From Paracoccaceae bacterium (GTDB lineage: Bacteria > Pseudomonadota > Alphaproteobacteria > Rhodobacterales > Rhodobacteraceae): 64,000 nucleotides of DNA. Each line of letters begins with the position of its first letter. Position 1 is the first letter of the stretch. The DNA lies in the NCBI GenBank assembly GCA_024642725.1, contig JAHEAO010000006.1, positions 1 through 64,000 on the forward strand. The letters are read 5' to 3'. The notes beneath the pieces were generated by a model. It was given only the letters and a program-made list of their open reading frames with translations. It had not been told where the DNA came from and ran no database searches. Position numbers and translations under genes: made by a program. Of the stretch, positions 5,271-53,367 are shown piece by piece.

Positions 5271-7169
5271 ATGCAGCAACGCCGACGGACCACCAATGCC
5301 CTTGCCCGGAGTGACGCGGCGACACCGGGGCTGCGACTGATCCTGGGATTTTCGCTGGTCTTTCTGGCGCTGCTGGCTGCGGGCGCAGTGCGGGCCGAAG
5401 AGATCATCAAGTCCCACGGCTATTCCACCTTTGGAGAGCTGAAATATCCGGCGGATTACAAACGCCTCGATTATGTGAATCCCGACGCGCCGAAGGGCGG
5501 GGAAATCTCGATCTGGGCGCAGGGCACCTTCGATACGTTCAACCCCTATTCCTCCAAAGGACGGGCCGGAGTGCTGTCGACCATCGGCTACGAGTCCCTG
5601 CTGGTCGGCACTGCCGACGAAGTCAGCGCGGAATACTGTCTCTTGTGCGAGAGCCTTGAATATCCCGAAAGCGAGGATTGGGTCATTTTCCACATGCGCA
5701 AGGACGCGACGTTCTCTGACGGCAGTCCGGTAACGGCGCATGACGTCGTCTTCAGCCATTATCTTTTGCTGGAACAGGGCCTGCCGTCCTATGCAACCGC
5801 GATCAAGGCGCTGATTCCGACCGCCGAGGCGCTGGACGATTATACGGTGAAATTCACCTTCGCGCCGGATGTGCCGCGCAAGAACCTGATCAATCAGGCG
5901 GGCGGTGTGCCGGTCTGGTCGAAGGCCTGGTACGAAAAGACCGGCACGCGGCTGGATGAGAGCAGCTTGGCAATCTCGCCCGGATCCGGCCCCTATGTAC
6001 TGGACAGTTACGACATCAACCGCAGGATCGTATACAAGCGCAACCCGGATTACTGGGGCAAGGATCTGCCGATCAACGTCGGGCGCAACAATTTCGATAC
6101 GATTCGGGTCGAGTATTTCGCCGACAGCCAGGCCGCGATGGAAGCGTTCAAGGCCGGAGAATACACATTCCGGCAAGAAACCAGCAGCCTGTCATGGGCC
6201 ACCAGCTATGATTTTCCGGCGATTGAAAAGGGCTGGGTCAAGCTTGAAACGCTGGATGACGGCACCTTGCCCGGCGCCACTGGTTTTGTCTTCAACCTGC
6301 GCCGTGAAAAGTTTCAGGACATCCGCGTGCGCGAGGCGCTGGGCCTGATGTTCAACTTCACTTGGACCAATGACTCGCTGCAATACGGGCTTTTCCAGCA
6401 GCGTGAGAGCTTCTGGCAGGGAAGCCCGCTGGAAGCCAAGGGCGTGGCCGAGGGTGCGGAACTGGCGCTGCTGGAAAGCGTCAAGGATCTGATCGACCCG
6501 GCGATCCTGACCGAACCGGTTGTCATGCCGCATACGTCGGGCGACCGCCAACTGGACCGCAAGAATCTGCGCGCCGCATCGAAGCTTCTGGAAGAAGCCG
6601 GCTGGATTGTTGGCGATGACGGTATTCGCCGCAAGGACGGTGAAAAACTGACGGCCGAATTCCTTTCGGTCAGCCCCAGTTTCGACCGGATCATCATGCC
6701 CTATATCGAGAACCTCAAACAGTTGGGCGTGGATGCGACTTATACCCGGGTCGATCCTTCGCAATATACCAACCGCGAACGCGCCTTCGACTGGGACATG
6801 ATCTTTGACGGGTATACTGTCGGGCTGGAGGAAGGGCTCGGGCTTGACCAGCGCTTCGGCAAGGGCGGCTTGGGCGATCTGTTCAACCCGGCGGGCTATT
6901 CCTCCGAAGCGGTGGACAAGCTGATCGAAGTCGCGGTCGACGCCAAGACCTATGACGAGATGGCCACCGCGGTGCGCGCCATCGACAGGATTATGCGGGC
7001 CGAACGCTTTATCGTGCCGGTCTGGTATTTGGGCAAATACTGGGTGGCCTATTACGACATGTTCGAACACCCCGCCGAACTTCCGCCCTATGCCTTGGGC
7101 AATCTTGATTTCTGGTGGTTCAACGCCGACAAGTCCGCTGATTTGAAGGCGGCCGGGGCGCTTCGGTAA
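5271..7169 (+). CDS. yejA: Peptide ABC transporter substrate-binding protein (YejA-like, SBP family 5)
   Basis: 632 residues from the preferred start. The ATG at 5238 has no suitably spaced ribosome site, whereas GGAG lies 6 bases before the ATG at 5271 (a second ATG at 5268 is adjacent). An N-terminal basic region and hydrophobic helix end at VRAEE, a Sec signal peptide. The mature protein begins in YejA style ([35 protein letters not shown]), and the family-5 motif [14 protein letters not shown] is present. In enterobacteria YejA binds peptides, including microcin C. The protein probably captures oligopeptides in the periplasm for YejBEF, encoded immediately downstream. Confidence 0.9.
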
Positions 7170-26904: not shown

Positions 26905-26999
26905 AGCGTCTTGCACGGTCCAGGTAGAGATACGACGCTGTCGAACCGGGTCCGGCCACCTCGTGGGTGAGGTCCGGGCTAGAACGAGGGAACGCGAAT

Positions 27000-28604
27000 A
27001 TGTGGGACTACTTAAAACTGGTGTTGTTGGGGCTGATCGCTCTGGTGGCGGCCATTGCTGCCAACTATGGGCGCGACTTGGCCTATCAGGTGCACGCCGT
27101 TATCGTAATGCTCGTGTCGGGCGGACTTTTCCTGTGGACGTTGCGCCACACCGAGGAACCCAAGCCCAAGCCCGATCCGCAGTTGAATTATATGGATGGC
27201 GTTGTGCGCGCCGGGGTCGTTGCAACGGCACTCTGGGGTGTAACGGGCTTTCTTGTCGGGGTCTGGATTGCATTCCAACTGGCCTTTCCCGCTCTGAATT
27301 TCGAATGGCTTCAGGGTTACGGCAACTTTGGTCGGCTTCGCCCACTGCATACTTCCGCAGTGATTTTCGCGTTTGGCGGCAACGCCCTGATCGCAACGTC
27401 GTTCTACGTCGTTCAGCGCACCAGCGCGGCGCGGCTCTGGGGCGGAAACCTGGCATGGTTCGTGTTCTGGGGATACCAGTTGTTCATCGTTCTCGCGGCC
27501 ACGGGGTATCTTCTGGGCGCAACCCAATCGAAGGAATATGCCGAGCCGGAGTGGTACGTTGACCTTTGGCTTACACTGGTCTGGGTCGCTTACCTGGCCG
27601 TGTTCCTTGGCACGATCATCAAGCGGAAAGAGCCGCACATCTATGTGGCGAACTGGTTCTATCTGTCTTTCATCGTCACCATTGCGATGCTGCACATCGT
27701 GAACAACCTGTCGATCCCGGTGTCGATCTTCGGATCGAAGTCGGTGCAGGTCTTCGCGGGGGTTCAGGATGCGATGACGCAATGGTGGTACGGCCACAAC
27801 GCGGTGGGCTTCTTCCTGACCGCGGGTTTTCTGGGCATGATGTATTACTTCGTCCCGAAGCAGGCCGAACGCCCGGTTTTCAGCTACAAGCTGTCGATCA
27901 TTCACTTCTGGGCACTCATCTTCCTGTACATCTGGGCGGGTCCGCACCATTTGCACTACACGGCTCTGCCGGACTGGGCATCGACCCTTGGCATGGTCTT
28001 CTCGATCATCCTCTGGATGCCGTCGTGGGGTGGCATGATCAACGGCCTGATGACCCTGTCGGGCGCTTGGGACAAGCTGCGCACCGACCCGATCATCCGC
28101 ATGATGGTGATCTCGATCGGTTTCTATGGCATGTCGACTTTCGAGGGTCCGATGATGTCGATCCGCGCGGTGAACTCGCTGTCGCACTACACTGACTGGA
28201 CCATCGGTCACGTCCATTCCGGCGCGCTTGGCTGGAACGGCATGATCACTTTCGGCGCGCTGTACTTCCTGACGCCGAAATTGTGGAACCGTGAGCGGCT
28301 TTACAGCCTGAGCCTCGTGAACTGGCACTTCTGGCTCGCGACCATCGGCATCATCCTCTACGCCGCCTCGATGTGGGTGACGGGGATCATGGAAGGCCTG
28401 ATGTGGCGCGAAGTGGATGCCAACGGCTTCCTGGTGAACAGCTTTGCTGACACCGTCGCGGCCAAGTTCCCGATGTATGTGGTCCGTGCTACGGGTGGTC
28501 TTCTCTACCTCACCGGTGCGCTGATCATGTGTTATAACCTCTGGATGACTGTGCGCAGATCTCCGGCGAAAGCCGAAGCGTCTGCCATGGCTCCGGCTGA
28601 ATAG
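27000..28604 (+). CDS. ccoN: cbb3-type cytochrome c oxidase subunit I
   Basis: The track begins at 26967, but ATG 27000 (MWDYLK) is preceded by GAGGGA at proper spacing, giving 534 residues. About 12 transmembrane helices are apparent. Metal ligands are visible: RPLHTSAV (low-spin heme His), [11 protein letters not shown] and GPHHLHYT (CuB histidines), and [12 protein letters not shown] (high-spin heme). This is the catalytic subunit that reduces O2 to water with high affinity and pumps protons. First gene of ccoNOQP. Confidence 0.97.
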
Positions 28605-28618
28605 GGAGGGCCGGAGAG

Positions 28619-29344
28619 ATGGCAATTCTTGATCGTCACAAGATTCTTGAGAAAAACGCGACGCTGCTTTTGGTCTTCAGCTTTCTGGTTGTGACCATCG
28701 GCGGGATCGTGGAAATCGCACCGCTTTTCTACCTTGAAAACACAATCGAGGACGTTGAAGGGGTGCGGCCCTACAGCCCGCTGGAACTGACCGGGCGCGA
28801 CATCTACATCCGCGAAGGCTGCTACGTCTGCCATAGTCAGATGATCCGCCCGATGCGGGACGAGGTTGAGCGCTATGGCCATTACTCGCTGGCGGCGGAG
28901 TCGATGTACGACCATCCGTTCCAGTGGGGGTCCAAGCGGACCGGGCCTGATCTGGCCCGGGTTGGTGGTCGCTATTCCGACGAATGGCATGTCGACCACC
29001 TGACCGACCCGCAATCGGTGGTGCCGGAATCGGTAATGCCCAAGTATGGCTTCCTGTCGCAGCGCCTGATCGAGCCGAAGTATACGGCCGATCTGATGAG
29101 CACACACCGGATTGTCGGCGTTCCCTATACCGACGAGATGATCGAAGCGGCAGCGGCTGACTTTGAAGCCCAAGCCGATCCCGATAGTGATTGGGAAGCG
29201 ATGGTCGAACGGTATCCGGGTGCACAGGTCCGCAACTTCGACGGTCAGCCGGGCATTTCCGAAATGGATGCCTTGATCGCCTATATGCAAATGCTGGGCA
29301 CGCTGGTCGATTTCTCGACCTTCACGCCTGACGCAAGCCGGTAG
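28619..29344 (+). CDS. ccoO: cbb3-type cytochrome c oxidase subunit II (mono-heme)
   Basis: 241 residues. One N-terminal transmembrane anchor (about 15-37) is followed by a periplasmic class I cytochrome c domain with CYVCH at Cys68-Cys71-His72 in the motif [14 protein letters not shown], which is diagnostic for CcoO. It passes electrons towards CcoN. It follows ccoN by 14 bp with GGAGAG just before the start. Confidence 0.97.
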
Positions 29345-29354
29345 GGGGGAGATC

Positions 29355-29546
29355 ATGGACTACCATATCCTTCGCGAAATCGCCGACAGCTGGGTTCTGC
29401 TGCTCATGTTCGTGTTCTTCCTTGGGATCGTGCTGTGGGCCTTCCGGCCCGGCAGCCGCAAGGTTTACCGCGACACCGCCGAGATCCCGTTCCGGCATGA
29501 AGACAAACCCGCGAGCGACAATCGCCTTGCAAAGGGGGCTAAATAA
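29355..29546 (+). CDS. ccoQ: cbb3-type oxidase small subunit CcoQ/FixQ
   Basis: 63 residues with a single transmembrane helix (about 12-33, LLLMFVFFLGIVLWAF) followed by a short polar tail (RHEDKPASD). CcoQ stabilises the cbb3 complex. The gene lies 10 bp after ccoO and its stop is immediately followed by the ATG of ccoP. Confidence 0.93.
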   Translation: MDYHILREIADSWVLLLMFVFFLGIVLWAFRPGSRKVYRDTAEIPFRHEDKPASDNRLAKGAK

Positions 29547-30404
29547 ATGGCCAAGAAACCCGAGAAGCCAAACGAACCCGAAACCACCGGCCACAGCTGG
29601 GACGGTATCGAGGAATACAACAACCCCTTGCCGCGCTGGTGGCTCTGGACCTTTTACGCGACCATCGTCTGGGGCGTGATTTACACGATCGCCTATCCGG
29701 CATGGCCGCTGGTCAACAGGGCGACGGCCGGGATCATGGGGTTCTCGACGCGGGCAGAGGTGGCAAGGGATATCCAGACCTTCGCTGATGCCAATGCCGC
29801 GATCGAGGCCAAGCTGGCTGCGGCCGATCTCGCGACGGTCGCCGCGGATCCGGAACTGCAGAGTTTTGCCCGAAACGCGGGTGCTGCGGTGTTCAAGACC
29901 AACTGCTCGCAGTGTCACGGGTCGGGTGCCGCCGGTGCAAAAGGCTATCCAAACCTGCTGGACGATGACTGGCTTTGGGGCGGTGACATCGAAAGTATCG
30001 CATTTACCGTGCGCCACGGCGTCAGGAATGAAACCGGCGATTCCCGCTTTTCGCAGATGCCCGCCTTTGGCGAGATTCTGAGCGAAGAGGAAATCGCGCA
30101 AGCGGCGGCCTATGTTCAGAAACTATCCGGTCAGGACCATGATGCTGCTTTGGCAGCAACAGGGGAAACCGTGTTCATCGACAACTGTTCGGCTTGCCAC
30201 ACTGAGGCCGGAACGGGCGACCGCGCACAGGGTGCGCCGAACCTGACTGATGCGATCTGGCTCTATGGTGGCGATCACGCGACGCTGATCGAATCTATCA
30301 CCAAAGCGCGTTTCGGTGTGATGCCCGCATGGGGCCAGCGCCTGAGCGATGCCGAAGTGAACGCTGTTGCGGCCTATGTCCACCAACTCGGCGGTGGCGA
30401 ATAG
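29547..30404 (+). CDS. ccoP: cbb3-type cytochrome c oxidase subunit III (di-heme)
   Basis: 285 residues. The N-terminal motif [15 protein letters not shown] precedes one membrane anchor. Two cytochrome c domains follow, with CSQCH at 120-124 and CSACH at 214-218. Distal methionines are in SQMPAFG and GVMPAWG. It receives electrons from soluble or membrane cytochrome c. Last gene of the operon; an inverted repeat follows at 30444. Confidence 0.97.
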
Positions 30405-30443
30405 GCCTTAGAAGGTCCGGGACCCTCAAGATTCCCGGGTGTT

Positions 30444-30488
30444 GCACCGACCCCTGATCCTGTTCGCGCGTTTCTTCGGGGTCGGTGC
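30444..30488 (+). terminator. Inverted repeat after ccoP, probable terminator
   Basis: GCACCGACCCC and GGGGTCGGTGC form an 11-bp perfect stem around a 23-base loop, 40 bp after the ccoP stop. Only a short T run follows, so it is a weak intrinsic terminator or an mRNA-stabilising hairpin. The rest of 30405-30638 shows no gene and presumably holds the promoter of the next operon. Confidence 0.55.
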
Positions 30489-30638
30489 TTCCTAATACAG
30501 TGGCGGCGTGGCGAAAGCTGCGCCGCCGTTTGCTGTTGGTGAGCCAAACGTCGCTTCGGTGCACAGATTAGTCTGCTTAGGGCCTTGACTTGACCCGGTG
30601 TCTGCCGACTCTGCCACTATTGTTTGCAGGGGGGAAAT

Positions 30639-31706
30639 GTGCAGATATTCAGGAAGACCGTCGAATCCGCCAATGCAGTCGGTTTGTCTTTGCCGGACTG
30701 CCCATTTCCGAGCACCGACGTGAAAGCCGTCGCGCGTTTGCTTGACTTGTGCCCGGTCGCACGCCCGACACCGCTCTTGGAAGCCGAAGACCTTGCCAAG
30801 AAACTGGGCGTCGCCGAGATCTGGGTCAAGGATGAACGCAGCCGGATGGGACTTGGCAGCTTCAAGGCACTTGGCGCTGCTTATGTCATTGCTGTGGATG
30901 CGGCTGACAGCGGTGCCGATCTGACGGATTCGCCGCTGTCCGGAGTGACCTATGTGACGGCAAGCGCCGGCAATCACGGGATGTCCGTGGCCGCGGGTGC
31001 CCGTGTCTTTGGCGCTGGGGCTGTGATCTACATCGCCGAATCCGTGCCGGAGAGTTTCGCTCGCAGGCTTCGTGAAAAGGGCGCGGAGGTCGTGCGCGCC
31101 GGCCAGATCTATGAGGAAAGCATGGCGGCTGCGGCGAAGGCAGCGGCGGACAATGGCTGGCGGCTTTTGTCGGACAGTTCATGGGCGGGTTATTTCGATG
31201 TGCCGCACCGCTTGATGGAAGGCTATCTGATCCTGATGCAGGAAGTCTTTGCGCAGGTCGAATCTTCGCCGACCCACATCTTCCTGCAGGCGGGTGTCGG
31301 CGGACTCGCAGGGGCGGCCGCAGCACTGGCCCGTGATCTGTGGGGTGACGCAGTCACGATTGTCGTGGTCGAACCCGATGCTGCCCCGGCGATCTACGGC
31401 TCAGTCCGCGCCGGGCATGCCGTGGCGGTCAACGGTCCGGTGTCCTGTATGGGCCGGCTCGATTGCAAGGAACCTTCGCTCATCGCACTTAAGGGACTGG
31501 CTCGGGATGCGAATCTGTTCATCACGATCTCTGAAGAAGAAGCCGAATCCGCGATGCAGACGCTGTCCGATTCCGGGTTGGCGACGACGCCCTCGGGCGG
31601 CGCTGGCCTTGCCGCCCTGATAGCGGCGGGTTCCGACCGTGAAGCGCTGGGGTTGGCCCCGGACAGCCGGGTTCTGGTTATCCTGAGCGAAGGGCCCGAA
31701 GAATGA
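30639..31706 (+). CDS. PLP-dependent lyase, diaminopropionate ammonia-lyase-like (fold type II)
   Basis: The track start (TTG 30624) is less likely than GTG 30639, which has AGGGGGG just upstream; 355 residues. The PLP lysine is Lys76 in LGSFKALG, and glycine loop AGVGGLAG binds the phosphate. The segment LLSDSSWAGYFDVPHRLMEGY is characteristic of diaminopropionate ammonia-lyase. The DAPAL segment TDGNHGRG, with a catalytic Asp, reads TASAGNHG here as in threonine deaminases, so the substrate may differ. The gene overlaps the M24 gene by four bases and starts a three-gene operon with families also found in ectoine catabolism (EutB, EutD, EutA). Confidence 0.82.
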   Translation: MQIFRKTVESANAVGLSLPDCPFPSTDVKAVARLLDLCPVARPTPLLEAEDLAKKLGVAEIWVKDERSRMGLGSFKALGAAYVIAVDAADSGADLTDSPLSGVTYVTASAGNHGMSVAAGARVFGAGAVIYIAESVPESFARRLREKGAEVVRAGQIYEESMAAAAKAAADNGWRLLSDSSWAGYFDVPHRLMEGYLILMQEVFAQVESSPTHIFLQAGVGGLAGAAAALARDLWGDAVTIVVVEPDAAPAIYGSVRAGHAVAVNGPVSCMGRLDCKEPSLIALKGLARDANLFITISEEEAESAMQTLSDSGLATTPSGGAGLAALIAAGSDREALGLAPDSRVLVILSEGPEE

Positions 31707-32869
31707 GCGACCGCGGCTTTCCGATCGAGGAATTTCGGACTCGAGTTCTGAAAGCGCAGACCCTGATGGCCAAGGCCGGGCTTGCAGCGCTCTTGGTTAC
31801 CACCGAGCCGGACTTGCGTTATTTCTCCGGTTACCTGACGCGATTCTGGGAAAGCCCGACTCGGCCTTGGTTCCTGATCGTGCCGGCGTCGGGCGAACCC
31901 ATCGCAGTCATCCCATCTATCGGCGCTGCCCTCATGGCGCGCACATGGATCAAGGACATCCGAAGCTGGCGGGCTCCGGATTTGGTCGATGATGGTGTGT
32001 CGCTGCTGGCCGAAACCCTTCGGGAAGTCGCAGGGACATCCGGAGTGATTGGATTGCCGATGGGACATGAAAGTCACCTGCGTATGCCGCTTGCCGACTA
32101 CGCCCGGCTGACGGCGAAGCTTGCGCCGTCGGTCATCGGTGACGATGCCGGAATTCTAAGGTCGCTTCGGATGGTCAAGTCGGACGCCGAAATCAACAAG
32201 ATCCGTGCCGCCTGCGGGATAGCCGACCGCGCTTTTGCCAGAGTTTCAGAGATCGCAGCCAGCGGGGAACCGCTCGATAGGGTGTTCCGCCGCTTCCAGA
32301 TGCTGTGCCTTGATGAGGGTGCGGACTGGGTTCCTTATCTCGCCGGGGCATCGGAACAGGGTGGCTACAGCGATGTCATTTCTCCGGCAACGGAGACCCC
32401 GCTTGCAGAGGGTGATGTTCTGATGCTGGACACGGGTTTGGTGCGGGACGGATATTTTTGCGATTTCGACCGGAATTTTGCAATTGGCGCCACCACCGAG
32501 GCGAACAATGCCGCGCATGCCCGCCTGATCGAGGCTGTCGATTCGGCGATGCAGATTGCGCGGCCCGGTGCCACTGCGGCCGATCTGTTCCATGCGATGG
32601 ACAGGATTGTGACCGGCGGTGCGGGCGGGTCGGATGCCGGACGGCTTGGCCACGGGCTTGGCATGCAGTTGACGGAATGGCCGTCGCTGATCCCGGCCGA
32701 CCAGACGGAGTTGCAGGAGGGCATGGTGCTGACACTGGAACCCGGCATCGAAACGGGTCCGGGCCGAATGCTCGTTCACGAAGAGAATATCGTGATCCGG
32801 GCTTCCGGGGCAGAGTTCCTGTCGACGCCTGCGGGGCCACATATGCCGGTGCTGAGAGGTGCACGATGA
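31703..32869 (+). CDS. M24-family metallohydrolase (Xaa-Pro aminopeptidase-like)
   Basis: 388 residues: a creatinase-like N-terminal domain (about 1-150) and a pita-bread catalytic domain. All five metal ligands are seen: the two Asp in MLDTGLVRDGYFCDFDRN, His in GHGLGMQ, Glu in LEPGIETG and Glu in VHEENIVI. Such enzymes include aminopeptidase P, creatinase and ectoine hydrolase (DoeA/EutD), so it may cleave a peptide, an imide or a cyclic amide. It overlaps both neighbours by four bases (ATGA), so a role in one pathway with them is likely. Confidence 0.85.
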   Translation: MSDRGFPIEEFRTRVLKAQTLMAKAGLAALLVTTEPDLRYFSGYLTRFWESPTRPWFLIVPASGEPIAVIPSIGAALMARTWIKDIRSWRAPDLVDDGVSLLAETLREVAGTSGVIGLPMGHESHLRMPLADYARLTAKLAPSVIGDDAGILRSLRMVKSDAEINKIRAACGIADRAFARVSEIAASGEPLDRVFRRFQMLCLDEGADWVPYLAGASEQGGYSDVISPATETPLAEGDVLMLDTGLVRDGYFCDFDRNFAIGATTEANNAAHARLIEAVDSAMQIARPGATAADLFHAMDRIVTGGAGGSDAGRLGHGLGMQLTEWPSLIPADQTELQEGMVLTLEPGIETGPGRMLVHEENIVIRASGAEFLSTPAGPHMPVLRGAR

Positions 32870-33606
32870 CCGATTTCGCTTACACGCTCGATATACCGGG
32901 CGACCCGTGCCTTGGGCTGATCGTGCTCCAGACGGATGAGACGATCGAACAGGACTTCCGCCGCCTGCTACCCGCTTCCGCTCGGCTCTATGTCTCGCGT
33001 GTTCCAAGCGGGCTTGAAGTCACCAGAGAGACGCTGGGGGCGATGGAGGCGCATATACCTGCGGCGGCAGGGCTGCTGCCCGAACCGATCAGCTTTGATG
33101 CGATTGGCTATGGCTGCACGTCAGGAACCTCGGTCATCGGAACGGCGAAGGTCGGCGACCTCGTGCGTCAGGGTGCGCGAACCGAGGCGGTGACAGAACC
33201 GGTTTCGGCGCTCCTGGCCGCGTCGGCAGCGCTTGGTGTGCGGCGGCTGGCCTTTCTGTCGCCCTATGTCGAGGCGGTTTCGGCGGGTTTGTGCGATGTG
33301 CTTCGGGACAACGGGCTTGAGATTCCGGTTTTCGGGTCGTTCAACACGGCCGAAGAGGCAAAGGTTGCCCGGATCGCCGGACCGTCAATTGTAGCAGCGG
33401 CCAGTCAACTGGCCGGGACCGCCGAGGTGGACGCGATATTCCTGTCCTGCACCAATTTGCGGACACTCGATGTGATCGCAGAGATCGAGCGGATCATCGG
33501 AAAGCCGGTTCTCTCAAGTAATCAGGTGCTGGCTTGGCATATGTGCCGACTCTCGGGTGCAGGCAAAATGCCCGAAGGGTTTGGCAGGCTGCTGAGCGTC
33601 GAGTGA
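32866..33606 (+). CDS. Asp/Glu racemase superfamily protein (maleate isomerase / arylmalonate decarboxylase / EutA-like)
   Basis: The track ORF starts inside the M24 gene; the ATG at 32866 overlaps the M24 stop (ATGA) and gives 246 residues. Two catalytic-type cysteines are present: Cys84 in GYGCTSGTSVIG and Cys195 in FLSCTNLRT. Two cysteines on opposite sides of the substrate are required for racemisation or isomerisation. The CTSGTS motif is of the maleate isomerase / EutA type. It may invert the stereocentre of the product made by the M24 hydrolase or used by the lyase (inference). Confidence 0.82.
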   Translation: MTDFAYTLDIPGDPCLGLIVLQTDETIEQDFRRLLPASARLYVSRVPSGLEVTRETLGAMEAHIPAAAGLLPEPISFDAIGYGCTSGTSVIGTAKVGDLVRQGARTEAVTEPVSALLAASAALGVRRLAFLSPYVEAVSAGLCDVLRDNGLEIPVFGSFNTAEEAKVARIAGPSIVAAASQLAGTAEVDAIFLSCTNLRTLDVIAEIERIIGKPVLSSNQVLAWHMCRLSGAGKMPEGFGRLLSVE

Positions 33607-33652
33607 GAGACGTGCAGAATTGCCAGTCGGAGGATGCCTTCTTCGGCAGAAT

Positions 33653-35389
33653 TCACTGCTTGCCGATGCGGAGCGTCGTTTTGCCACCGGCAGGGACGAC
33701 AATCTGATGATCCTCGTCCGTTGCTGCATCGTGAAGACCTAACACCTGGTCGGCAGGTCCAGTATTTTCCACACGGATGTCGGCGACGCCATAGGACTCG
33801 AACTGAAGCTTGCCGAAGGACCGCCCTAGATAACCGGCATTGTCGAACCGGATGATCATGTTCTCGACGACGAAGGCACCGCGCGTCGGTATCGCATCTG
33901 GCGGCAGGTTGGAGACAATGCTACCGGTCCAGTCTTCGCCGGTCTTCGGCCCTTCGAACCAGCTGTACCACTGCTGACCCTCCGGAAGCGGAAAGCGCTT
34001 AATGACGGAAGGATTCCCAAGGGCAAGAAAGACGGGATCGCCTTCCGCGATGAGTTGAGTCACTGCCTCTTTCGTCGCATCGTTGTGACGGTCTCCCAAT
34101 GCGAATTCCAGCATCGAGGGGGAATTGAAGTAGGTGAAGGGAAAGCGACGGCCGTCACGCTTTTCAATTGCGTGGAAATCCTCGCTCATGGCGAGCGTGG
34201 CCTGCACGCGCACCACATCTGGCATCCAGCGGTAGCGCTGGGTGTAATAGGCGGCTTCGATCACCAGAGCCAGCGCTGCCATCGCGACAAAGACTTGCAG
34301 TTTGCGCCTATCGGACAGCCGCGAGATCAGCCGCGAAATCTCGCGACCGGCAAGAACCGCCATCGGCACGACCAGCGGCAGCAAATGATCGTGCCGCTGG
34401 TGGGAAGACAGGCTGAATACTGCAAGCGACAGGATGATCCAAAGCGACAAGAAGCGTTCGGTTCGCCGTGCGGCGGGGTCCGTTTCAGGTCTGCGAATGG
34501 CAACATAGATGCCATAGGCGGTCAGGAACGACCATGGGACGAAGGACGCCATGAAGAAGGCGAAGGGAAGCGGCCTTGGCCCCTTTGTTGCATGTCCGAT
34601 CAGTTCCGACCCGATCTGCCTGTCGACGAGTGCCTGCCCGGCATCGAGATAGGCCAACAGGAACCAGCCGCCGCCGATCACGGCGACCAAGAGCAGGCCG
34701 GCCAAGTGAATCAGCAAGAGGTTCTTTCGTTCGCCTGATGTTGCGATCGGCGCGGCGCTACGGCCTTCCCAGAAGATTGCAGCCAGACCCAATGCGGCGA
34801 TCAACAATCCCAGCGGGCCCTTGGTAAGGGTCGCGAGGGCGCTCATGAACCAGAACCCGAGCCACCATTTCGACCCCGACCGGTCAGCCCAGGCCTTGAG
34901 GGCGAAGACACAGGACAGGGTAATGAGAAAGGTAAACAGCGCGTCGGTTCGCGCAAAGGCAAGATGCTGCATTCCGAGGGTGTTGAAAAAGACCAGCAGG
35001 CCGGCAAAATAACCGGTCCATCGTCCGAACCAATGATAACCGATCCATGACGCGGCCAGCGCCGTTCCCAGCATCGCAAGCCCGGATGGCAGGTAGAGCG
35101 ACGTCACATTGAGCCCCGAGAAGACCGTCGCGCTGAGTGCCGTTAGCCATGTCATGAGTGGGGGTTTGGACGTCACCGAGCCGCCAAAGTCGGTCTGCAC
35201 GGTCCAGCGCCCGGAGTGAATGACGTCCATCACATAGGCGATCGGTTTGTACTGATCGCCCGTGAAGTCCATTGGAGTGTATATGCGGATCAGCCATGCA
35301 ATCGCTAGGATCAGAGCGATTGTCAGACCTATCGGCAGCCATCTGTCTCGCCGAGTTACGTTGCCCAGGTTCTTGTTTGATTCAGTCAT
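33653..35389 (-). CDS. ArnT/PMT-like glycosyltransferase family 39 membrane protein
   Basis: 578 residues with about 12 hydrophobic helices in the first 400 and a soluble C-terminal domain. The first periplasmic loop has an acidic site (MDFTGDQYKPI), followed by TSKPPLMTW and ARTDALFTF, typical of ArnT-like dolichyl/undecaprenyl-phosphate-sugar transferases. It probably transfers a lipid-linked sugar to lipid A, another lipid or a protein at the outer face of the inner membrane. It runs opposite to its neighbours and sits between the ccoNOQP and ccoGHIS operons, where related genomes usually have no gene. Confidence 0.82.
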   Translation of the reverse strand: MTESNKNLGNVTRRDRWLPIGLTIALILAIAWLIRIYTPMDFTGDQYKPIAYVMDVIHSGRWTVQTDFGGSVTSKPPLMTWLTALSATVFSGLNVTSLYLPSGLAMLGTALAASWIGYHWFGRWTGYFAGLLVFFNTLGMQHLAFARTDALFTFLITLSCVFALKAWADRSGSKWWLGFWFMSALATLTKGPLGLLIAALGLAAIFWEGRSAAPIATSGERKNLLLIHLAGLLLVAVIGGGWFLLAYLDAGQALVDRQIGSELIGHATKGPRPLPFAFFMASFVPWSFLTAYGIYVAIRRPETDPAARRTERFLSLWIILSLAVFSLSSHQRHDHLLPLVVPMAVLAGREISRLISRLSDRRKLQVFVAMAALALVIEAAYYTQRYRWMPDVVRVQATLAMSEDFHAIEKRDGRRFPFTYFNSPSMLEFALGDRHNDATKEAVTQLIAEGDPVFLALGNPSVIKRFPLPEGQQWYSWFEGPKTGEDWTGSIVSNLPPDAIPTRGAFVVENMIIRFDNAGYLGRSFGKLQFESYGVADIRVENTGPADQVLGLHDAATDEDHQIVVPAGGKTTLRIGKQ

Positions 35390-35599
35390 GGTGTCCGCTC
35401 AGTTGCCATGGTCGGCATTGCCAGGTCGTTTAGTCCGTGCATTACCTTTCAGTCCAAATCGGCACAACCGCTATTGGTCTCCATTGATAAGTGATCAAGC
35501 GCTGGCTGAAAGTGTTTTCTTGTCGATCCGGGGGCCCGTATTTGATCGGTTGTGACTGCTATCGCTTCAAGATGTCGCAAAATTCTGGTGCTGAACCCT

Positions 35600-35613
35600 T
35601 TGACCTAGGTCAA
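35600..35613. promoter_or_regulatory. FNR/FnrL box upstream of ccoGHIS
   Basis: TTGACCTAGGTCAA is a full 14-bp palindrome and a perfect FNR consensus. Its centre lies 71 bases before the ccoG ATG. A GATAAG element near 35636 could be the -10 hexamer. The rest of 35390-35676 holds no gene. Confidence 0.9.
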
Positions 35614-35676
35614 TGTCGGGTCCACAGTTCTTCGCGATAAGCTCTCCAACGCGAACAGTGACTGGACGTTTTCCGT

Positions 35677-37104
35677 ATGTCTTCCACCGAAACCCCGCCG
35701 CCGCTTTATTCGGCACGAGAGCCCGTTTTCCCGCGTCGTGTCAGCGGCAAGTTCCGCACACTCAAGTGGTGGATCATGGGGGTAACGCTTGGAATCTACT
35801 ACCTGACGCCCTGGATCCGCTGGGACCGGGGCCCCAATCTCCCTGACCAGGCAGTCCTGGTCGACTTGGCCGGGCGCCGCTTTTTCTTTTTCTGGATCGA
35901 GATTTGGCCGCATGAATTCTATTTCATCGCGGGTCTCTTGATCATGGCGGGGCTCGGTCTTTTTCTATTCACCTCGGCGCTTGGCCGGGTCTGGTGCGGC
36001 TATACCTGCCCGCAGACCGTCTGGACCGATCTTTTCATCCTGACCGAACGATGGATTGAAGGGGATCGCAATGCGCGCGTGCGTCTCTGGAACGCCAAGT
36101 GGGATTTCCGTAAATGGCGGCTGCGATTGACCAAATGGTTTATCTGGCTTCTGATCGGTCTGGCCACCGGCGGAGCTTGGGTGTTCTATTTCACCGATGC
36201 GCCGCAATTGCTGCGCGATCTGGTGACGCTGAACGCGCATCCGATTGCTTATACCACGATAGCCGTGCTGGGTACGATCACGGTCCTGTTCGGCGGCTTT
36301 GCACGTGAACAGGTCTGTATCTACATGTGCCCGTGGCCCCGCATCCAGGCCGCGATGATGGACGAGGATACGCTGACCGTCGCGTATCGCAGTTGGCGCG
36401 GCGAGCCGCGCGGCAAGCATCGCAAATCCGAAGACGCTGACAAGCTTGGCGATTGCATCGACTGCATGGCTTGCGTCAACGTCTGCCCGGTCGGGATCGA
36501 CATTCGCGAAGGTCAGCAACTCGCATGTATCACCTGTGCGTTATGTATCGACGCCTGTGACGAGATCATGGCCAAGATCGACAAGCCCCGCGGATTGATC
36601 GACTATATGGCGCTGACCGATGAGGCCGCCGAACGTTCCGGAAAGGCGCCGAAGCCGATCTGGAAGCATGTCCTGCGACCGCGGACAATTCTTTACACCA
36701 CCTTGTGGTCGCTGGTCGGCATTGGCTTGGTTTTCGCGCTCTTCATCCGCCCCGATATCGACATGACCGTGGCGCCGGTTCGGAACCCGACTTTCGTCAC
36801 GCTTTCGGACGGTTCCATCCGGAACACCTATGACGTTCGCCTGCGCAACAAGAATGGTGAAGACCGGCCGTTCCATATCTCGCTGACCTCTGATAGCCTT
36901 TTGCGTATCAGCCTTGAGGGTAAGGACGATCTGGTGGTTGATGTGCCTGCCGATGAAACCCTGCTGCAGCGTGTCTACGTAACCGCCCCGGCGGGCAGCG
37001 ATGCGGCGACAACGGATCGCACGCCGTTCCGCATCTGGGTTGAGGATCTGGAGAGCAACGAGCACACCTCGAACGACACCATTTTCAACGGAGTCGGACA
37101 ATGA
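35677..37104 (+). CDS. ccoG: Cytochrome oxidase assembly ferredoxin-like protein CcoG/FixG/RdxB
   Basis: 475 residues. Several membrane helices (about 30-220) are followed by two ferredoxin-type [4Fe-4S] motifs, CIDCMACVNVCP and CITCALCIDACD (about residues 264-290), and a C-terminal Ig-like domain (about 365-470). CcoG is thought to reduce Cu(II) for insertion into the cbb3 oxidase. An FNR box lies 64 bp upstream. The stop overlaps ccoH by four bases. Confidence 0.95.
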   Translation: MSSTETPPPLYSAREPVFPRRVSGKFRTLKWWIMGVTLGIYYLTPWIRWDRGPNLPDQAVLVDLAGRRFFFFWIEIWPHEFYFIAGLLIMAGLGLFLFTSALGRVWCGYTCPQTVWTDLFILTERWIEGDRNARVRLWNAKWDFRKWRLRLTKWFIWLLIGLATGGAWVFYFTDAPQLLRDLVTLNAHPIAYTTIAVLGTITVLFGGFAREQVCIYMCPWPRIQAAMMDEDTLTVAYRSWRGEPRGKHRKSEDADKLGDCIDCMACVNVCPVGIDIREGQQLACITCALCIDACDEIMAKIDKPRGLIDYMALTDEAAERSGKAPKPIWKHVLRPRTILYTTLWSLVGIGLVFALFIRPDIDMTVAPVRNPTFVTLSDGSIRNTYDVRLRNKNGEDRPFHISLTSDSLLRISLEGKDDLVVDVPADETLLQRVYVTAPAGSDAATTDRTPFRIWVEDLESNEHTSNDTIFNGVGQ

Positions 37105-37559
37105 GCGAGAGAGTCATCACCGGGCGGCACGTCTTGATTGGCACGACGGCCGCGTTTTCCGTCATCATCGGAGTGAACATTCTTCTGGCCTACAAAGCGG
37201 TCGCGACCTTTCCGGGGCTGGAGGTCAAGAATTCCTATGTCGCGTCCCAGAGCTTCGATGCTGACCGGAAGGCCCAGCTTGCGCTGGGTTGGGACGTGTC
37301 GGCGAAGGTCGATGGTGGTCAGCTCCGTCTTTCGATCATCGATGGCGACGGAAAGCCGGTGCGGGTTTCGGAACTTACCAGCACGCTGGGCCGGGCGACC
37401 GAGGTGAAGGATGACCGCACACCAGAATTCGTCTTCGATGGGTCGGCCTATGTCGCGCCTGTCGACCTGGCCCCCGGAAACTGGAACCTGCGCATGGTCG
37501 CAACCGCGAACGATGGCACCAAGTTCCAGCAACGAATCATATTGTATGTAAAGGGCTGA
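37101..37559 (+). CDS. ccoH: cbb3 oxidase assembly protein CcoH/FixH
   Basis: 152 residues with one N-terminal transmembrane helix (about 12-34) and a periplasmic FixH domain. The segment VKNSYVASQSFDADRKAQ is typical. CcoH associates with early cbb3 assembly intermediates. It overlaps ccoG (ATGA) and ends 2 bp before ccoI. Confidence 0.92.
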   Translation: MSERVITGRHVLIGTTAAFSVIIGVNILLAYKAVATFPGLEVKNSYVASQSFDADRKAQLALGWDVSAKVDGGQLRLSIIDGDGKPVRVSELTSTLGRATEVKDDRTPEFVFDGSAYVAPVDLAPGNWNLRMVATANDGTKFQQRIILYVKG

Positions 37560-37561
37560 TC

Positions 37562-39736
37562 ATGTCGGGTGCATCGCAGATGTCGGCCTGTCCTGCCTGC
37601 GTCGCTGCCCCCGCGGCCGAGGCAATCGCGGCGCGCAATGTCAAGGACGCCAGCATCATGCTGTCGCTTCCAGGAATACACTGCGCCGCTTGCATCTCTG
37701 CCGTTGAACGCGCCCTGAACGCTGAACCGGGCGTCACTGCCGCGCGGGTCAACCTGACGCTCAAACGTGCCAGCATAAAGGCCGAGCCGGAAGTGACGCC
37801 CGCACGTCTGATCAACCTTCTCGCGCGCGTCGGTTACGAGGCTCATGAACTTGATGCGGGCATGCTGGGCAGCACCGAAACCGATCGCCGCGGCCGGGCC
37901 CTGCTGACACGTCTGGCCGTCGCCGGTTTCGCGATGATGAATGTGATGCTTTTGTCCGTCGCGGTTTGGTCAGGGGCCACCGAAGCGACACGCGACCTTT
38001 TCCACTGGATTTCTGCCGCCATCGCGCTACCGACGATCGCATTTTCAGCGCAGCCCTTTTTCACCAGCGCCTGGGGCGCTTTGCGCGTCCGGCGTCTGAA
38101 CATGGACGTTCCGATATCTCTGGCGATTATTCTGGCCGCCGGGATGTCTGTCTATGAAACCATGCAAAGTGGCGAACATGCCTATTTTGACGCGGCCCTG
38201 TCGCTCACCTTTTTCCTGCTTGCCGGTCGATATCTCGATCACCGCACGCGCAGCATTGCCCGGTCTGCCGCCGAAGAACTGACAGCCCTTGAAGTTCCCC
38301 GGGCATTGCGCGCCAGCGGTGAAACCGTCGCTGTCGCCGAACTTGCAGTGGGCGACCTTGTCCGGGTCCTGCCGGGCGCGCGCGTGCCCGTCGATGGCGT
38401 TGTTCTCGACGGCGAAAGCGAGATCGACCGCTCGCTGTTGACCGGAGAAAGTCTTCCTGTCGCCGCACGCGCCTCCACCGCCGTAAGCGCTGGAGAAGTG
38501 AACCTGACCGGCGCGCTGGTCGTCCGCGTGAGCGCGGCGGGGAAGGACACCTCGCTGCACCGGATGGCCGATCTCGTCGCAATGGCCGAGACGTCGCGCA
38601 ATCGCTACACCTCACTGGCTGACAAGGCGGCCCGGATATATGCGCCAGTGGTTCATTTGCTGGCTTTTGCCGCGTTTGGTGGCTGGCTCTGGGCGAGCGG
38701 CGATGTCCGATTGGCGTTGAATATCGCCGTTGCGGTGCTGATCATTACATGTCCCTGTGCCTTGGGACTGGCCGTGCCGGCCGTCACAACCGCGGCGTCA
38801 GGGCGTCTTTTCCGCGCTGGTATGCTGATCAAGAGCGCAACAGCGCTCGAACGTCTGGCGGAGGTCGATACCGTCGTATTCGACAAGACCGGGACGTTGA
38901 CGCGCGGACGCCCCGAATTGACCAATCTTGCCGATTTTTCGGACGAGGATCTGTCGGTCGCAGCTGCGATCGCTGCAGGTTCGGCCCATCCGCTGGCGCA
39001 ATCGCTTGTCGAAGCGATACGGGCTGCAGCGATTGAGCCGGTGGGCCTGAGCGATCTGCGGGAAGTCCCCGGGCACGGCGTAGAAGGCCGCTGGCAGGGT
39101 ATGGCTGTTCGACTTGGCCGCGCCGAGTGGCTGGGCGCGCAGGCGGTTTCCACGACTGCAACCTATCTGAAGATCGGTGACCGCGAGCCTTTGGCGTTTC
39201 GGTTCGCCGACTCGCTGCGCGAAGGCGCGGCAGAGGTCGTCGCCGCCCTTCATAAGCAGCGCAAAGACGTTGTGCTTTTGTCCGGTGATGCGCCTGAGGC
39301 GGTTGCCGACATAGCCAGACGTGTCGGAATAGAAGCTTGGGAAGCGCAAATGCTACCTGCCGATAAGGCCGCGCGGATCGCGGTTCTGGCAAAAGCGGGG
39401 CGTCGGGTGCTGATGGTTGGTGACGGACTTAATGACACGGCAGCGCTCGCTTCGGCGCATGTGTCCATTTCCCCGGCCAGCGCGCTGGAAGCGGCGCGGG
39501 TTGTATCGGACATCGTTCTTCTTGGCAGTTCTCTGGCCCCGATTGCCGAAGCCATTGCCGTCGCCAAGTCGGCTACGTTGCGGATCAAGGAGAATTTTGC
39601 AATCGCGGCCCTGTACAATTTGATCGCTATCCCGGTGGCCCTTGCGGGTTTCGCCACCCCGCTGGCCGCGGCGCTGGCGATGTCCGGATCTTCTATCTCG
39701 GTGTCGTTGAATGCGCTCAGGCTGACGCGGCGATGA
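37562..39736 (+). CDS. ccoI: Copper-exporting P1B-type ATPase CcoI/FixI for cbb3 assembly
   Basis: 724 residues. An N-terminal CPAC (about 10-13) and a heavy-metal domain with CAAC (Cys41, Cys44) bind Cu(I). The core has the LTGESLP actuator motif, the membrane CPC at 397-399, the phosphorylated Asp441 in DKTGTLT, and GDGLNDTAAL. It exports copper for periplasmic insertion into CcoN. The stop overlaps the start of ccoS (ATGA). Confidence 0.95.
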   Translation: MSGASQMSACPACVAAPAAEAIAARNVKDASIMLSLPGIHCAACISAVERALNAEPGVTAARVNLTLKRASIKAEPEVTPARLINLLARVGYEAHELDAGMLGSTETDRRGRALLTRLAVAGFAMMNVMLLSVAVWSGATEATRDLFHWISAAIALPTIAFSAQPFFTSAWGALRVRRLNMDVPISLAIILAAGMSVYETMQSGEHAYFDAALSLTFFLLAGRYLDHRTRSIARSAAEELTALEVPRALRASGETVAVAELAVGDLVRVLPGARVPVDGVVLDGESEIDRSLLTGESLPVAARASTAVSAGEVNLTGALVVRVSAAGKDTSLHRMADLVAMAETSRNRYTSLADKAARIYAPVVHLLAFAAFGGWLWASGDVRLALNIAVAVLIITCPCALGLAVPAVTTAASGRLFRAGMLIKSATALERLAEVDTVVFDKTGTLTRGRPELTNLADFSDEDLSVAAAIAAGSAHPLAQSLVEAIRAAAIEPVGLSDLREVPGHGVEGRWQGMAVRLGRAEWLGAQAVSTTATYLKIGDREPLAFRFADSLREGAAEVVAALHKQRKDVVLLSGDAPEAVADIARRVGIEAWEAQMLPADKAARIAVLAKAGRRVLMVGDGLNDTAALASAHVSISPASALEAARVVSDIVLLGSSLAPIAEAIAVAKSATLRIKENFAIAALYNLIAIPVALAGFATPLAAALAMSGSSISVSLNALRLTRR

Positions 39737-51038: not shown

Positions 51039-51830
51039 TCAGTGTTTCCTGGTCCAAACGACAGGAAACCAGTCTTCCCGTAACCTTTGTCCGTTCTGCA
51101 TGTCGTGGCCCGGATATGGCGGAGAAGTTCGTCCCGGCCGCTCGATATAGCGGGCATCGTCACCGACCCAACGTAGGCTCAACGCTCGCCGGCGCGTCGC
51201 CGACATGTTGCCCCGTGCGCCATGAACGGTCTTGTAGTCAAACAGAACAACGTCTCCTGGCTCCATGTCCCATTCCAGAACTTCCACATCTTCGGGATTG
51301 GCGTCCGGATCCGGCACGGGTGTCCAGTCGGCCTTGCTGTCATAGAAATCGCTGTCATCTGCCCAGCTGACCGGCCGCACCATCCTGGGCCAAAGATGGG
51401 ATCCGCCAATAAAACGAAGGCTTGCTTCACGTACTGGATCAAGGGGAATCCACTGGCTGACTGTTTGCCGGCCTTCAACGAAGTAATAGGGGGCGTCCTG
51501 ATGCCACGGCGTCGGCTTGGGCGTTCCGGGTTCCTTGACCAGAACATGGTCGTGAAAGAACTGAGCCGTGTCAGATGCCATGGCCCGAGCGGCAAGTTCT
51601 GCCGCCGGGCTTTCGCGTACGACGTGTTCGAACTCGGGAATTCGCGTCCAGTTGCAATAATCGTCGAAGAACCTGCCTTCGGACACGGCATTCTCACTGG
51701 CGTAGGGTCCGGGTTCGGCCATATTCCTTGCGACACCGGCGGCCATGATGTCGATCCAATCGGTAAAGACGCCTCGCAGGACGATTACACCATCCCGTTG
51801 AAACGTTTTGATTTGTTCGTCGGTCATCAT
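51039..51830 (-). CDS. Phytanoyl-CoA dioxygenase (PhyH) family Fe(II)/2-oxoglutarate oxygenase
   Basis: The track begins at a TTG. ATG 51830 overlaps the preceding stop (ATGATGA, with a second ATG at 51827), giving 263 residues. The metal triad is visible as His and Asp in TPWHQDAPYY and a distal His in YKTVHGARGNMS, with the 2-oxoglutarate Arg in RRRALSLRW. It hydroxylates an unknown substrate using O2. Coupling to an ornithine-cyclodeaminase family gene suggests an amino-acid-like substrate. It lacks the ectoine hydroxylase signature. Confidence 0.87.
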   Translation of the reverse strand: MMTDEQIKTFQRDGVIVLRGVFTDWIDIMAAGVARNMAEPGPYASENAVSEGRFFDDYCNWTRIPEFEHVVRESPAAELAARAMASDTAQFFHDHVLVKEPGTPKPTPWHQDAPYYFVEGRQTVSQWIPLDPVREASLRFIGGSHLWPRMVRPVSWADDSDFYDSKADWTPVPDPDANPEDVEVLEWDMEPGDVVLFDYKTVHGARGNMSATRRRALSLRWVGDDARYIERPGRTSPPYPGHDMQNGQRLREDWFPVVWTRKH

Positions 51831-52747
51831 CGTTTCTGCCAAGCCTCGAGTATGTGAGCGCTCGTCATCAAGTCCAAATGTGCGCCGCCGCCGTTCTTGA
51901 ACAATGTGATTTCTTCCTCCGATGTCCGGGCAAACCGGCCGCTGGCAAGGTCATAATAATCCGCCACGATATCGTCCGGACGGATGACCCCGTTGGCCAG
52001 CGGGTCTTTCAACTCGCCAATATGTTCCAGTGTCGTGGCTCGGCTGTCGACGAAGATACGCGCACGACGCATGACCTCGTCATCTGCCTCGCGCATGTCT
52101 GGCCTATAGGCCCCGATCAGGTCGATATGCTGTCCGGGTTGCAACCATTCACCGCGCAGAATCGGTTCCGTCGTCATGGTGGCCGATGTCACAATATCCG
52201 CTGATCGCACTGCCTGCTCGAGATCATCTGCAACAGTCACTCCGGAAAACTCGGCCGCAAGCGCTTCTGCGCCGCTGCGGGTCCGGTTCCAAACGGTAAA
52301 ATGCGCCTCTGGAAACAGGGCCCCGTAAGCTTCGCGGAGCGAGTGAGCGACGGTTCCCGCACCAATTATGAGGATTTCGGACGAGTCCTTGCGCGCCAGC
52401 TTGCGCGCCGCAAGCAGACTGTCGCCGGCGGTCTTCCACTTGGTCACCAGATGAAAATCTATGATCGCCTGCAGCATCCCGTCCGCGTCCGAATAGAGAT
52501 TGACCCCACCATTGACGGCGGGGAGTCCCCTGTCCTTGTTCGACGGAAAGATCGTGGCTGACTTGACCGCTATTCCCAGTCCGTCAATCCAGGCCGCACG
52601 CGACAGGACCGTGTCGTCACCACGGTAGAGAAACGAATCCTTGATATCGGCGCGCGGCAGACGATGTCCGGCCTCCAGGCTGCCCGTAAGTGAAATCCAG
52701 TTCAGCAGCTTCTCGCCTTCCGCGAACGAGATAATTTCCAAGGTCAT
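51827..52747 (-). CDS. Ornithine cyclodeaminase / mu-crystallin family protein
   Basis: 306 residues. The N-terminal substrate domain contains GIAVKSATIFPSN, with Lys in the usual catalytic position. The Rossmann domain has IGAGTVAHSLREAY for NAD(P) and a later GAYRPDMREAD. The family includes ornithine cyclodeaminase, ketimine reductases, alanine dehydrogenase and EutC. The substrate cannot be assigned. The four-base ATGA overlap with the HAD gene and overlap with PhyH show coupled translation. Confidence 0.87.
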   Translation of the reverse strand: MTLEIISFAEGEKLLNWISLTGSLEAGHRLPRADIKDSFLYRGDDTVLSRAAWIDGLGIAVKSATIFPSNKDRGLPAVNGGVNLYSDADGMLQAIIDFHLVTKWKTAGDSLLAARKLARKDSSEILIIGAGTVAHSLREAYGALFPEAHFTVWNRTRSGAEALAAEFSGVTVADDLEQAVRSADIVTSATMTTEPILRGEWLQPGQHIDLIGAYRPDMREADDEVMRRARIFVDSRATTLEHIGELKDPLANGVIRPDDIVADYYDLASGRFARTSEEEITLFKNGGGAHLDLMTSAHILEAWQKR

Positions 52748-53367
52748 GCCGCAGCCTCTCTCTTGCTCAAAAGCCCTTCGGCGACCAGCCGATCTGCCAA
52801 CCCCTGCGGACCTTCGAACCTGTGCACCTGCCAGCCACGGGCTTTGGCTGCTGCGATATTGTCGTCGCGGTCATCGGCGAAAAGCAATGCCGCCGGCGAG
52901 ACGCCGGAATCTTCCTCGACCATTTGGTAGATCCGGGCGTCGGGCTTTACGACTTTCATGTAGCCGGAGATGTAGGGCCGGTCGAATTCGCCGAGAACGG
53001 GGTAGATCGTCTGCGCGTATTCAAAGCTGCCAACGCCGAAGTTCGACAAAGCGAAAACCGGCACTCCACGCTGCCGCAGACTGCGCAAAAGCTTGACGGA
53101 ATGCGGGATTTCTGGACTTGCCATCTCGATCCAGTGGTCAAACCACATCCGGACCTCGGCCCGGAAATCCGGATATTGTTCGGCTGTCTCGTAGATGGTT
53201 TCCTGAAATGGCGCACCACGATCGACACGGTCGTTCATTGCATGCAGATCGACCTCTGAAAAGAGCGCTTTTCGACGGGCCTCACCAATCGCGGCGTCAT
53301 AAAATCGCTCCGGGTTCCACTCGATCAAAACATTTCCGATATCGAATACCACCGCTTCAATCGCCAT
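52744..53367 (-). CDS. HAD-superfamily hydrolase subfamily IA
   Basis: ATG 53367 gives 207 residues ([17 protein letters not shown]). The nucleophile region is FDIGNVL, where the first Asp is kept and the second is Asn, as in YihX-like phosphatases. FALSNFG is motif [10 protein letters not shown] motif III, and FADDRDDNI motif IV. Substrate unknown. It overlaps yaiI by 11 bases and the cyclodeaminase gene by four. Confidence 0.82.

Follow-up and report, generated by a model that had tools for sequence, protein, structure and literature searches.

A conserved three-gene operon of Rhodobacteraceae that codes for a predicted DAPAL-family lyase, an M24-family protein and a EutA-like two-cysteine enzyme

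The genes for the breakdown of ectoine and 5-hydroxyectoine, eutABCDE (doeAB), are the closest described relatives of the locus considered here, and even in that system the enzymatic activities of EutA, EutB and EutC are stated to be unknown (PMC8739950). Another point of comparison is the diaminopropionate ammonia-lyase (DAPAL) family, one member of which, YgeX, closes the anaerobic urate pathway (PMC12507026). The DNA analyzed here, referred to as the window, is a stretch of 64,000 nucleotides from a Paracoccaceae bacterium (contig JAHEAO010000006.1, positions 1 to 64,000 of the forward strand). It carries three adjoining genes that an earlier note, made from the sequence alone, had taken for a EutB-type lyase, a EutD/DoeA-type M24 hydrolase and a EutA-type racemase. 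The trio is a real operon, conserved across many bacteria of sea and soil, and its members occur together far beyond chance.

All three open reading frames were confirmed in the window, and the two ATGA overlaps between them bear out the view that the genes share four bases at each junction and are translationally coupled. The layout, with the evidence for each element, is as follows.

30629 to 30638, forward strand: purine-rich Shine-Dalgarno-like stretch, AGGGGGGAA, 5' of the GTG start of gene 1 (sequence)
30639 to 31706, forward strand: gene 1, predicted DAPAL-family fold-type II pyridoxal phosphate (PLP) lyase, 355 residues, short clade, GTG start (NF006058, predicted structure)
31703 to 31706, forward strand: ATGA overlap, gene 1 stop and gene 2 start (sequence)
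31703 to 32869, forward strand: gene 2, predicted M24-family metallohydrolase of its own subfamily, 388 residues (PF00557 and PF01321, AlphaFold2 model, tree)
32866 to 32869, forward strand: ATGA overlap, gene 2 stop and gene 3 start (sequence)
32866 to 33606, forward strand: gene 3, EutA-like two-cysteine enzyme of the arylmalonate decarboxylase (AMDase) / Asp-Glu racemase superfamily, 246 residues (TIGR02990, PF17645, tree)

The conservation of this arrangement was examined in two ways. A pattern search with the lyase returned 78 genome loci, and 61 of the lyase relatives had room downstream for the other genes. All three genes were present at 44 of these loci, the lyase and the M24 gene at nine, the lyase and the racemase at one and the lyase alone at seven; overlaps of four to eight bases between genes recur in most relatives. 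An independent sample was then built by genome rather than by hit. Across 289 alphaproteobacterial genomes, 21 of 46 M24 relatives had a DAPAL-family gene within 5 kb, 24 had a EutA-like gene and 16 had both, while about 0.1 of each would be expected by chance. Among 151 genera of Rhodobacteraceae, the lyase occurs in 63 and the M24 gene in 77, with both in 61 and neither in 72 (odds ratio 137, p 3e-24, a p value that ignores shared ancestry), and in 54 of the 77 the M24 gene lies within 200 bp of the lyase. The gene-neighborhood search that the earlier note had proposed therefore finds the trio strongly conserved. The collection held one genome per species, genes at neighbor loci were called by a simple codon-bias script, and all trees cited below are quick trees. 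No published description of the operon was found in the open-licence literature searched, and no functional data on the trio were found in the literature on DAPAL, DoeB2, beta-N-methylamino-alanine (BMAA) or the locus tags that the Ruegeria copy bears.

The product of gene 1 belongs to the DAPAL family and not to EutB. It scores 281.4 bits on the DAPAL model NF006058 (cut-off 276), which some of its orthologues just miss (e.g., 262 and 273 bits). On the EutB models TIGR02991 and NF005680 it scores 48.8 and 67 bits against a cut-off of 413, compared to 500 on the EutB model for the canonical EutB of a genus mate (G001), and the tree splits EutB from the family of gene 1 with a support of 100. 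The EutB label must therefore be given up. The AlphaFold2 model (predicted local distance difference test, pLDDT, 92.7) has only DAPALs as its best Protein Data Bank matches, namely 4d9i and 5ygr from E. coli and Salmonella, with a template modelling (TM) score of about 0.88. In the E. coli enzyme, Asp120 and Lys77 have reportedly been proposed as the two bases. The corresponding codons in gene 1, placed by alignment, are these.

30864 to 30866, forward strand: Lys76, the PLP lysine (E. coli DAPAL Lys77), invariant in 113 of 113 sequences (alignment to 4d9g)
30966 to 30968, forward strand: Ala110, at the site of E. coli DAPAL Asp120, in SAGNHG instead of TDGNHG
31173 to 31175, forward strand: Asp179, at the site of E. 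coli DAPAL Asp189, Asp in 111 of 111 DAPAL-family rows

The Asp120 position is occupied by Ala in 97, Asp in 14 and Thr in 2 of the 113 lyase sequences. Ala is the residue in the short clade to which the window lyase belongs, while longer DAPALs at comparable loci retain Asp. Ala is also found at this site in a DAPAL of Vibrio that scores above the strict cut-off, so the Asp120 test is not decisive. One explanation for the loss, a racemase that supplies a single isomer, was considered and is not supported: two-gene loci with no racemase share the loop, and Asp occurs in some of the trios that do include a racemase.

Gene 2 matches PF00557 and PF01321, and its AlphaFold2 model (pLDDT 93) has PepE and prolidases as top fold matches, with DoeA an equally good match (TM 0.86). 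On the DoeA/EutD model TIGR02993, it reaches 60.9 bits against a cut-off of 613, and the tree sets its clade apart from DoeA with a support of 100. The dinuclear metal site of the M24 family is complete in gene 2 and its relatives and absent from DoeA, as judged from three DoeA sequences. The codons concerned are listed here.

32429 to 32431, forward strand: Asp243, first metal ligand, Asp in 104 of 104 relatives, Glu in DoeA
32462 to 32464, forward strand: Asp254, second metal ligand, Asp in 104 of 104 relatives, Pro in DoeA
32651 to 32653, forward strand: His317, metal ligand, His in 104 of 104 relatives, Tyr in DoeA
32672 to 32674, forward strand: Thr324, at the site of the second catalytic His of M24 peptidases, Thr in 104 of 104
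32738 to 32740, forward strand: Glu346, metal ligand, Glu in 104 of 104 relatives, Met in DoeA
32780 to 32782, forward strand: Glu360, metal ligand, Glu in 103 of 104 relatives with one gap, Thr in DoeA

Gene 2 has the five ligands of the prolidase type (D, D, H, E, E) and lacks the second-shell His, since the VHE of 1wy2 aligns with LTE. Because Thr324 replaces the second His of prolidases, the protein may not be an ordinary peptidase. The score, the retained ligands and the separate clade do not bear out a EutD/DoeA-type hydrolase; they point to an M24 protein of its own subfamily, related to DoeA at the superfamily level only. The catalytic roles of DAPAL and M24 enzymes, as far as they go beyond these alignments, are general knowledge. 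Two other activities were considered for gene 2: a DoeA-like ring opening is disfavored by the intact metal site, and for a DddP-like lyase reaction the sole likeness is the fold.

Gene 3 scores 163 bits on the EutA model TIGR02990 (cut-off 318) and 73 bits on the AMDase model (cut-off 225), matches the superfamily PF17645 and falls outside canonical EutA in the tree (support 97). Both catalytic cysteines of EutA have counterparts.

33115 to 33117, forward strand: Cys84, first predicted catalytic cysteine, present in 79 of 79 sequences
33448 to 33450, forward strand: Cys195, second predicted catalytic cysteine, present in 79 of 79 and aligned with the active-site Cys of AMDase

The racemase of the earlier note is thus EutA-like with two cysteines, while score and tree keep it out of EutA proper. 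The genome of the window (G000) has a second EutA-like gene (contig C47, 18145 to 18831, L163) that scores 190 bits on TIGR02990 and clusters with a gene of Aminobacter carrying the annotation arylmalonate decarboxylase, away from the racemase of the trio as well as from canonical EutA.

It had been noted that no transporter, deacetylase or cyclodeaminase is adjacent to the trio. This is correct for the window, where EutC and EutE are likewise missing beside the trio. Elsewhere, transporters, M20 deacetylases, EutC and DoeA or EutE do adjoin it, and the argument from missing neighbors is weakened because this is so in other genera. An AsnC/Lrp gene lies divergently upstream at 16 of the first 78 loci and at 22 loci in a wider set. 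A five-gene form, asnC / M20 - DAPAL - M24 - racemase, is found in Aliiroseovarius and two other genomes (G297, G221), and its M20 protein is DoeB2-like but below the cut-off (319/550). A PotABCD-type importer adjoins the M24 and EutA-like genes at 10 tabulated loci in Rhodobacteraceae and G183 (L093, L106, L152, L154, L158, L171 and L246-L249), with the lyase gene elsewhere in the genome in the case of L152; at L146 such an importer stands beside the lyase and M24 genes. The PotD-like solute-binding protein of the importer at L154 is encoded at 5663 to 6760. Oligopeptide-type ATP-binding cassette (ABC) genes occur beside some copies (L059, L094, L100). In plasmid copies, the M24 gene adjoins transporters annotated as EhuABCD (which in one further plasmid lie near it) or a tripartite ATP-independent periplasmic (TRAP) transporter, and in others amino-acid ABC genes and a Zn-dependent hydrolase. 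A Vibrio plasmid region combines a strict DAPAL (over the TIGR03528 cut-off), RidA, M24, a betaine/choline/carnitine transporter (BCCT) and an M20 aminoacylase, and beside an Aminobacter copy lies a DapE/ArgE-type M20 that distantly resembles YgeY.

Two plasmids show variations on this theme. On that of Aminobacter sp. SR38 (L182, 8153 to 12655), the racemase, M24 and M20 genes are followed by a cystathionine beta-lyase in the place of DAPAL, and the PLP lyase of the module is therefore exchangeable. That of Bosea vaviloviae (L188, 6816 to 21143) carries three M24 genes annotated as Xaa-Pro peptidases, an M20 gene, EhuABCD-type genes and malonyl-CoA synthase and decarboxylase, which hints at a related and possibly malonate-releasing pathway. 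The genome of the window holds generic M20 relatives only, at 43% identity, so a partner-type deacetylase was rejected. In the window itself, an ornithine-cyclodeaminase/mu-crystallin gene with only 31% identity to EutC is flanked by phytanoyl-CoA-dioxygenase-like and haloacid dehalogenase (HAD) hydrolase genes (51039 to 53367, reverse strand).

With a probability of roughly 0.5, we read the trio as a catabolic module that is mobile and breaks down an amino acid rich in nitrogen and substituted at the beta position, which reaches it N-acylated, amidated or in the form of a small peptide. The substrate is probably of the 2,3-diaminopropionate type or a beta-hydroxy-diamino acid; a derivative of this kind is suggested by the family of the lyase, the ectoine-type neighbor genes and the importers of the compatible-solute and polyamine types. 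First, the metal-dependent M24 protein would hydrolyze an amide or N-acyl bond, and in the fuller versions the M20 aminoacylase would take off a second acyl group. The two-cysteine EutA-like protein would then invert a stereocentre, bringing all of the compound into the isomer accepted by the lyase; for both enzymes the chemistry proposed is that of their superfamilies. Finally, the DAPAL-type PLP enzyme would beta-eliminate the substituent to give a 2-oxo acid (pyruvate in the case of diaminopropionate) and ammonia. Elimination looks to be the best-supported step, in view of family, fold and residues. The product of elimination by DAPAL-family enzymes is 2-aminoacrylate, the substrate of RidA, and the RidA gene beside the strict DAPAL of Vibrio counts in favor of this proposal. 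The logic of amide opening, inversion and ammonia elimination put forward at first remains plausible, although the EutB and DoeA labels underlying it do not stand; it also holds that no substrate can be assigned from known families.

The mobility of the module is visible in the window. The trio sits between ccoNOQP (26967 to 30404) and ccoGHI (35677 to 39736). No cco genes lie near the trio at any other locus fetched, and the copy of a genus mate (L164) has different neighbors. The module has therefore moved. A gene for a PMT-type glycosyltransferase (33653 to 35389, reverse strand) stands together with the trio between ccoNOQP and ccoG/H/I (26967 to 39736). Scans for promoters and terminators around the operon yielded nothing informative, and no Rfam match and no tRNA were found within the window.

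Several observations weigh against the proposed catabolic module. Gene 1 fails the strict DAPAL models TIGR03528 (184.5/532 bits) and TIGR01747 (169/274). The short clade has lost Asp120 and the loop there resembles that of serine/threonine dehydratase, so the lyase may not act on diaminopropionate. With Thr324 in place of the catalytic His of peptidases, amide hydrolysis by gene 2 is not assured, and the M24 fold also houses a lyase, DddP. The racemase is missing at 9 of the 61 loci and the lyase is alone at 7, and no transporter or regulator adjoins the window copy.

The module is often carried beside ectoine-type osmolyte genes, with a PotABCD-like importer of its own in several lineages. 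One could consider, tentatively, that the trio is an accessory of ectoine or 5-hydroxyectoine breakdown that handles hydroxy-N-acetyl-diaminobutyrate, hydroxy-diaminobutyrate, an ectoine stereoisomer or a by-product, beside or instead of EutABC, whose unassigned activities (PMC8739950) speak for this account. Canonical ectoine genes (DoeA, EutB, EutC or EutE) adjoin the trio in at least seven genomes. For example, G025, G372 and G417 share the order ArgE-type M20 - DoeA / EutB - EutC - class III aminotransferase - lyase - M24 - EutA-like - PotA - PotD, and because this order is shared the three islands are probably not independent events. In G204 the operon runs lyase - M24 - EutA-like - DoeA - EutE; DoeA is nearby in G406, G173 and G331, and EutB and EutC are downstream in L087. 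In 6 of the 151 Rhodobacteraceae genera, no more than 10 kb separates DoeA from the M24 gene, compared to 0.32 expected, and the two co-occur with an odds ratio of 4.9 (p 2.5e-5, uncorrected for phylogeny).

The case for an ectoine accessory is reduced by the genus mate G001, which has a complete enuR-ueh-eutABCDE cluster and keeps its trio elsewhere in the genome. The trio neither tracks EutB nor takes its place: among DoeA-bearing genera, its M24 gene turns up as often where EutB is present (18/28) as where it is missing (46/73), and replacement of EutABC as a general rule was rejected on these counts. DoeA is absent from 13 of the 77 genera with the M24 gene, and the importer of the islands is Pot-type, not Ueh/Ehu. 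The earlier note had named two results that would speak against its own reading, clustering of all three proteins with proven hydroxyectoine enzymes or a lack of conserved co-occurrence; neither came about.

Some observations on ectoine genes stand on their own. The island of M20, DoeA, aminotransferase and trio with a PotABCD-like importer replacing Ueh/Ehu is found at L171, L247 and L248 and also at L246, L152 and L249, with EutB and EutC at the first three only. This Pot-type ectoine-like island is apparently undescribed. In the genome of the window, a canonical DoeA gene is split by two contig ends (C95, 22409 to 23392, and C88, 25367 to 25660; 508 and 159 bits to TIGR02993), and no EutB over the search threshold was found.

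It is conceivable, if doubtful, that the trio, together with the M20 and Pot-type proteins linked to it, forms a pathway devoted to an undescribed solute of ectoine-like or N-acyl type whose core is a beta-substituted diamino acid. A metal-dependent M24 hydrolase would act there in the position that an M24 protein with no metal site has in ectoine breakdown.

Scavenging of D- or L-2,3-diaminopropionate or BMAA from small peptides, with release of pyruvate, ammonia and (from BMAA) methylamine, is an unlikely role. It would suit the DAPAL family and fold of the lyase, the dipeptidase-like top matches of the M24 protein (PepE and Xaa-Pro dipeptidases), the oligopeptide-type ABC genes at L059, L094 and L100 and the Vibrio region where a strict DAPAL, RidA and M24 lie together. 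It fits poorly with the replacement of Asp120 in the clade and with Thr at the catalytic His of the M24 protein, and no paper was found that ties these genes to BMAA.

A part in a urate-like pathway, as for YgeX in the anaerobic urate breakdown of E. coli, is very improbable, even though YgeX is a DAPAL and a distantly YgeY-like M20 adjoins the Aminobacter copy. Gene 1 fails the YgeX-type model TIGR03528 (184/532 bits), homologues of XdhD, YgfK, SsnA, HyuA and YgeW were not noted in the annotated plasmid neighborhoods, and most of the hosts are marine bacteria with an aerobic way of life. That three unrelated genes share an operon by chance, as the large size of every family and the seven loci with a lone lyase might suggest, is scarcely credible and already refuted by neighborhood counts about two hundred-fold above chance.

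The M24 gene is present in about half of the sampled Rhodobacteraceae genera (77/151) and the lyase in 63, many of them marine. With so wide a spread, the substrate is likely to be a common constituent of the dissolved organic nitrogen pool. The trio travels with ectoine-hydrolase genes though none of its proteins is a eut or doe enzyme. This gives annotation pipelines a reason against labelling them as enzymes of ectoine breakdown or as ordinary Xaa-Pro peptidases. As a parallel module of three genes whose active sites are clearer, the trio also offers a direct route to testing what a EutA-type racemase and its lyase partner do, which is useful because EutA, EutB and EutC have no assigned activity.

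How the trio compares to known systems can be summed up protein by protein. Gene 1 resembles DAPAL (YgeX / DpaL, 4d9i, 5ygr) in its match to NF006058, its fold, the PLP lysine and the Asp189 equivalent, and differs in its length (355 residues compared to about 400), in the change of Asp120 to Ala and in falling under the stricter cut-offs. Gene 2 shares the fold and the five metal ligands of the M24 prolidases and the dipeptidase PepE (4ege, 1wy2), but has Thr324, a conserved N-terminal FWxSPTRPW motif and 20-26% identity to them. It also has a fold match in DddP, a dimethylsulfoniopropionate (DMSP) lyase that is a non-peptidase metal enzyme of marine Rhodobacterales with the M24 fold, but it is no member by sequence (24 bits compared to a cut-off of 600). 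Gene 3 has the two catalytic cysteines and the PF17645 match of the superfamily of EutA, arylmalonate decarboxylase and maleate isomerase, but forms its own clade under both cut-offs. As a whole, the trio parallels eutABCDE (doeAB) in its M24 protein, its EutA-superfamily protein and its fold-type II PLP lyase, and the fuller versions add an AsnC/Lrp regulator and an M20 deacetylase and sometimes adjoin DoeA, EutB, EutC or EutE. It departs from that system in that scores and trees place each protein apart from its eut counterpart, the M24 protein keeps the metal site that DoeA lacks, and EutC, EutE and a transporter are missing from the window copy. All three proteins represent new branches of known families, and in combination they make up a variant of the catabolic scheme known for ectoine.

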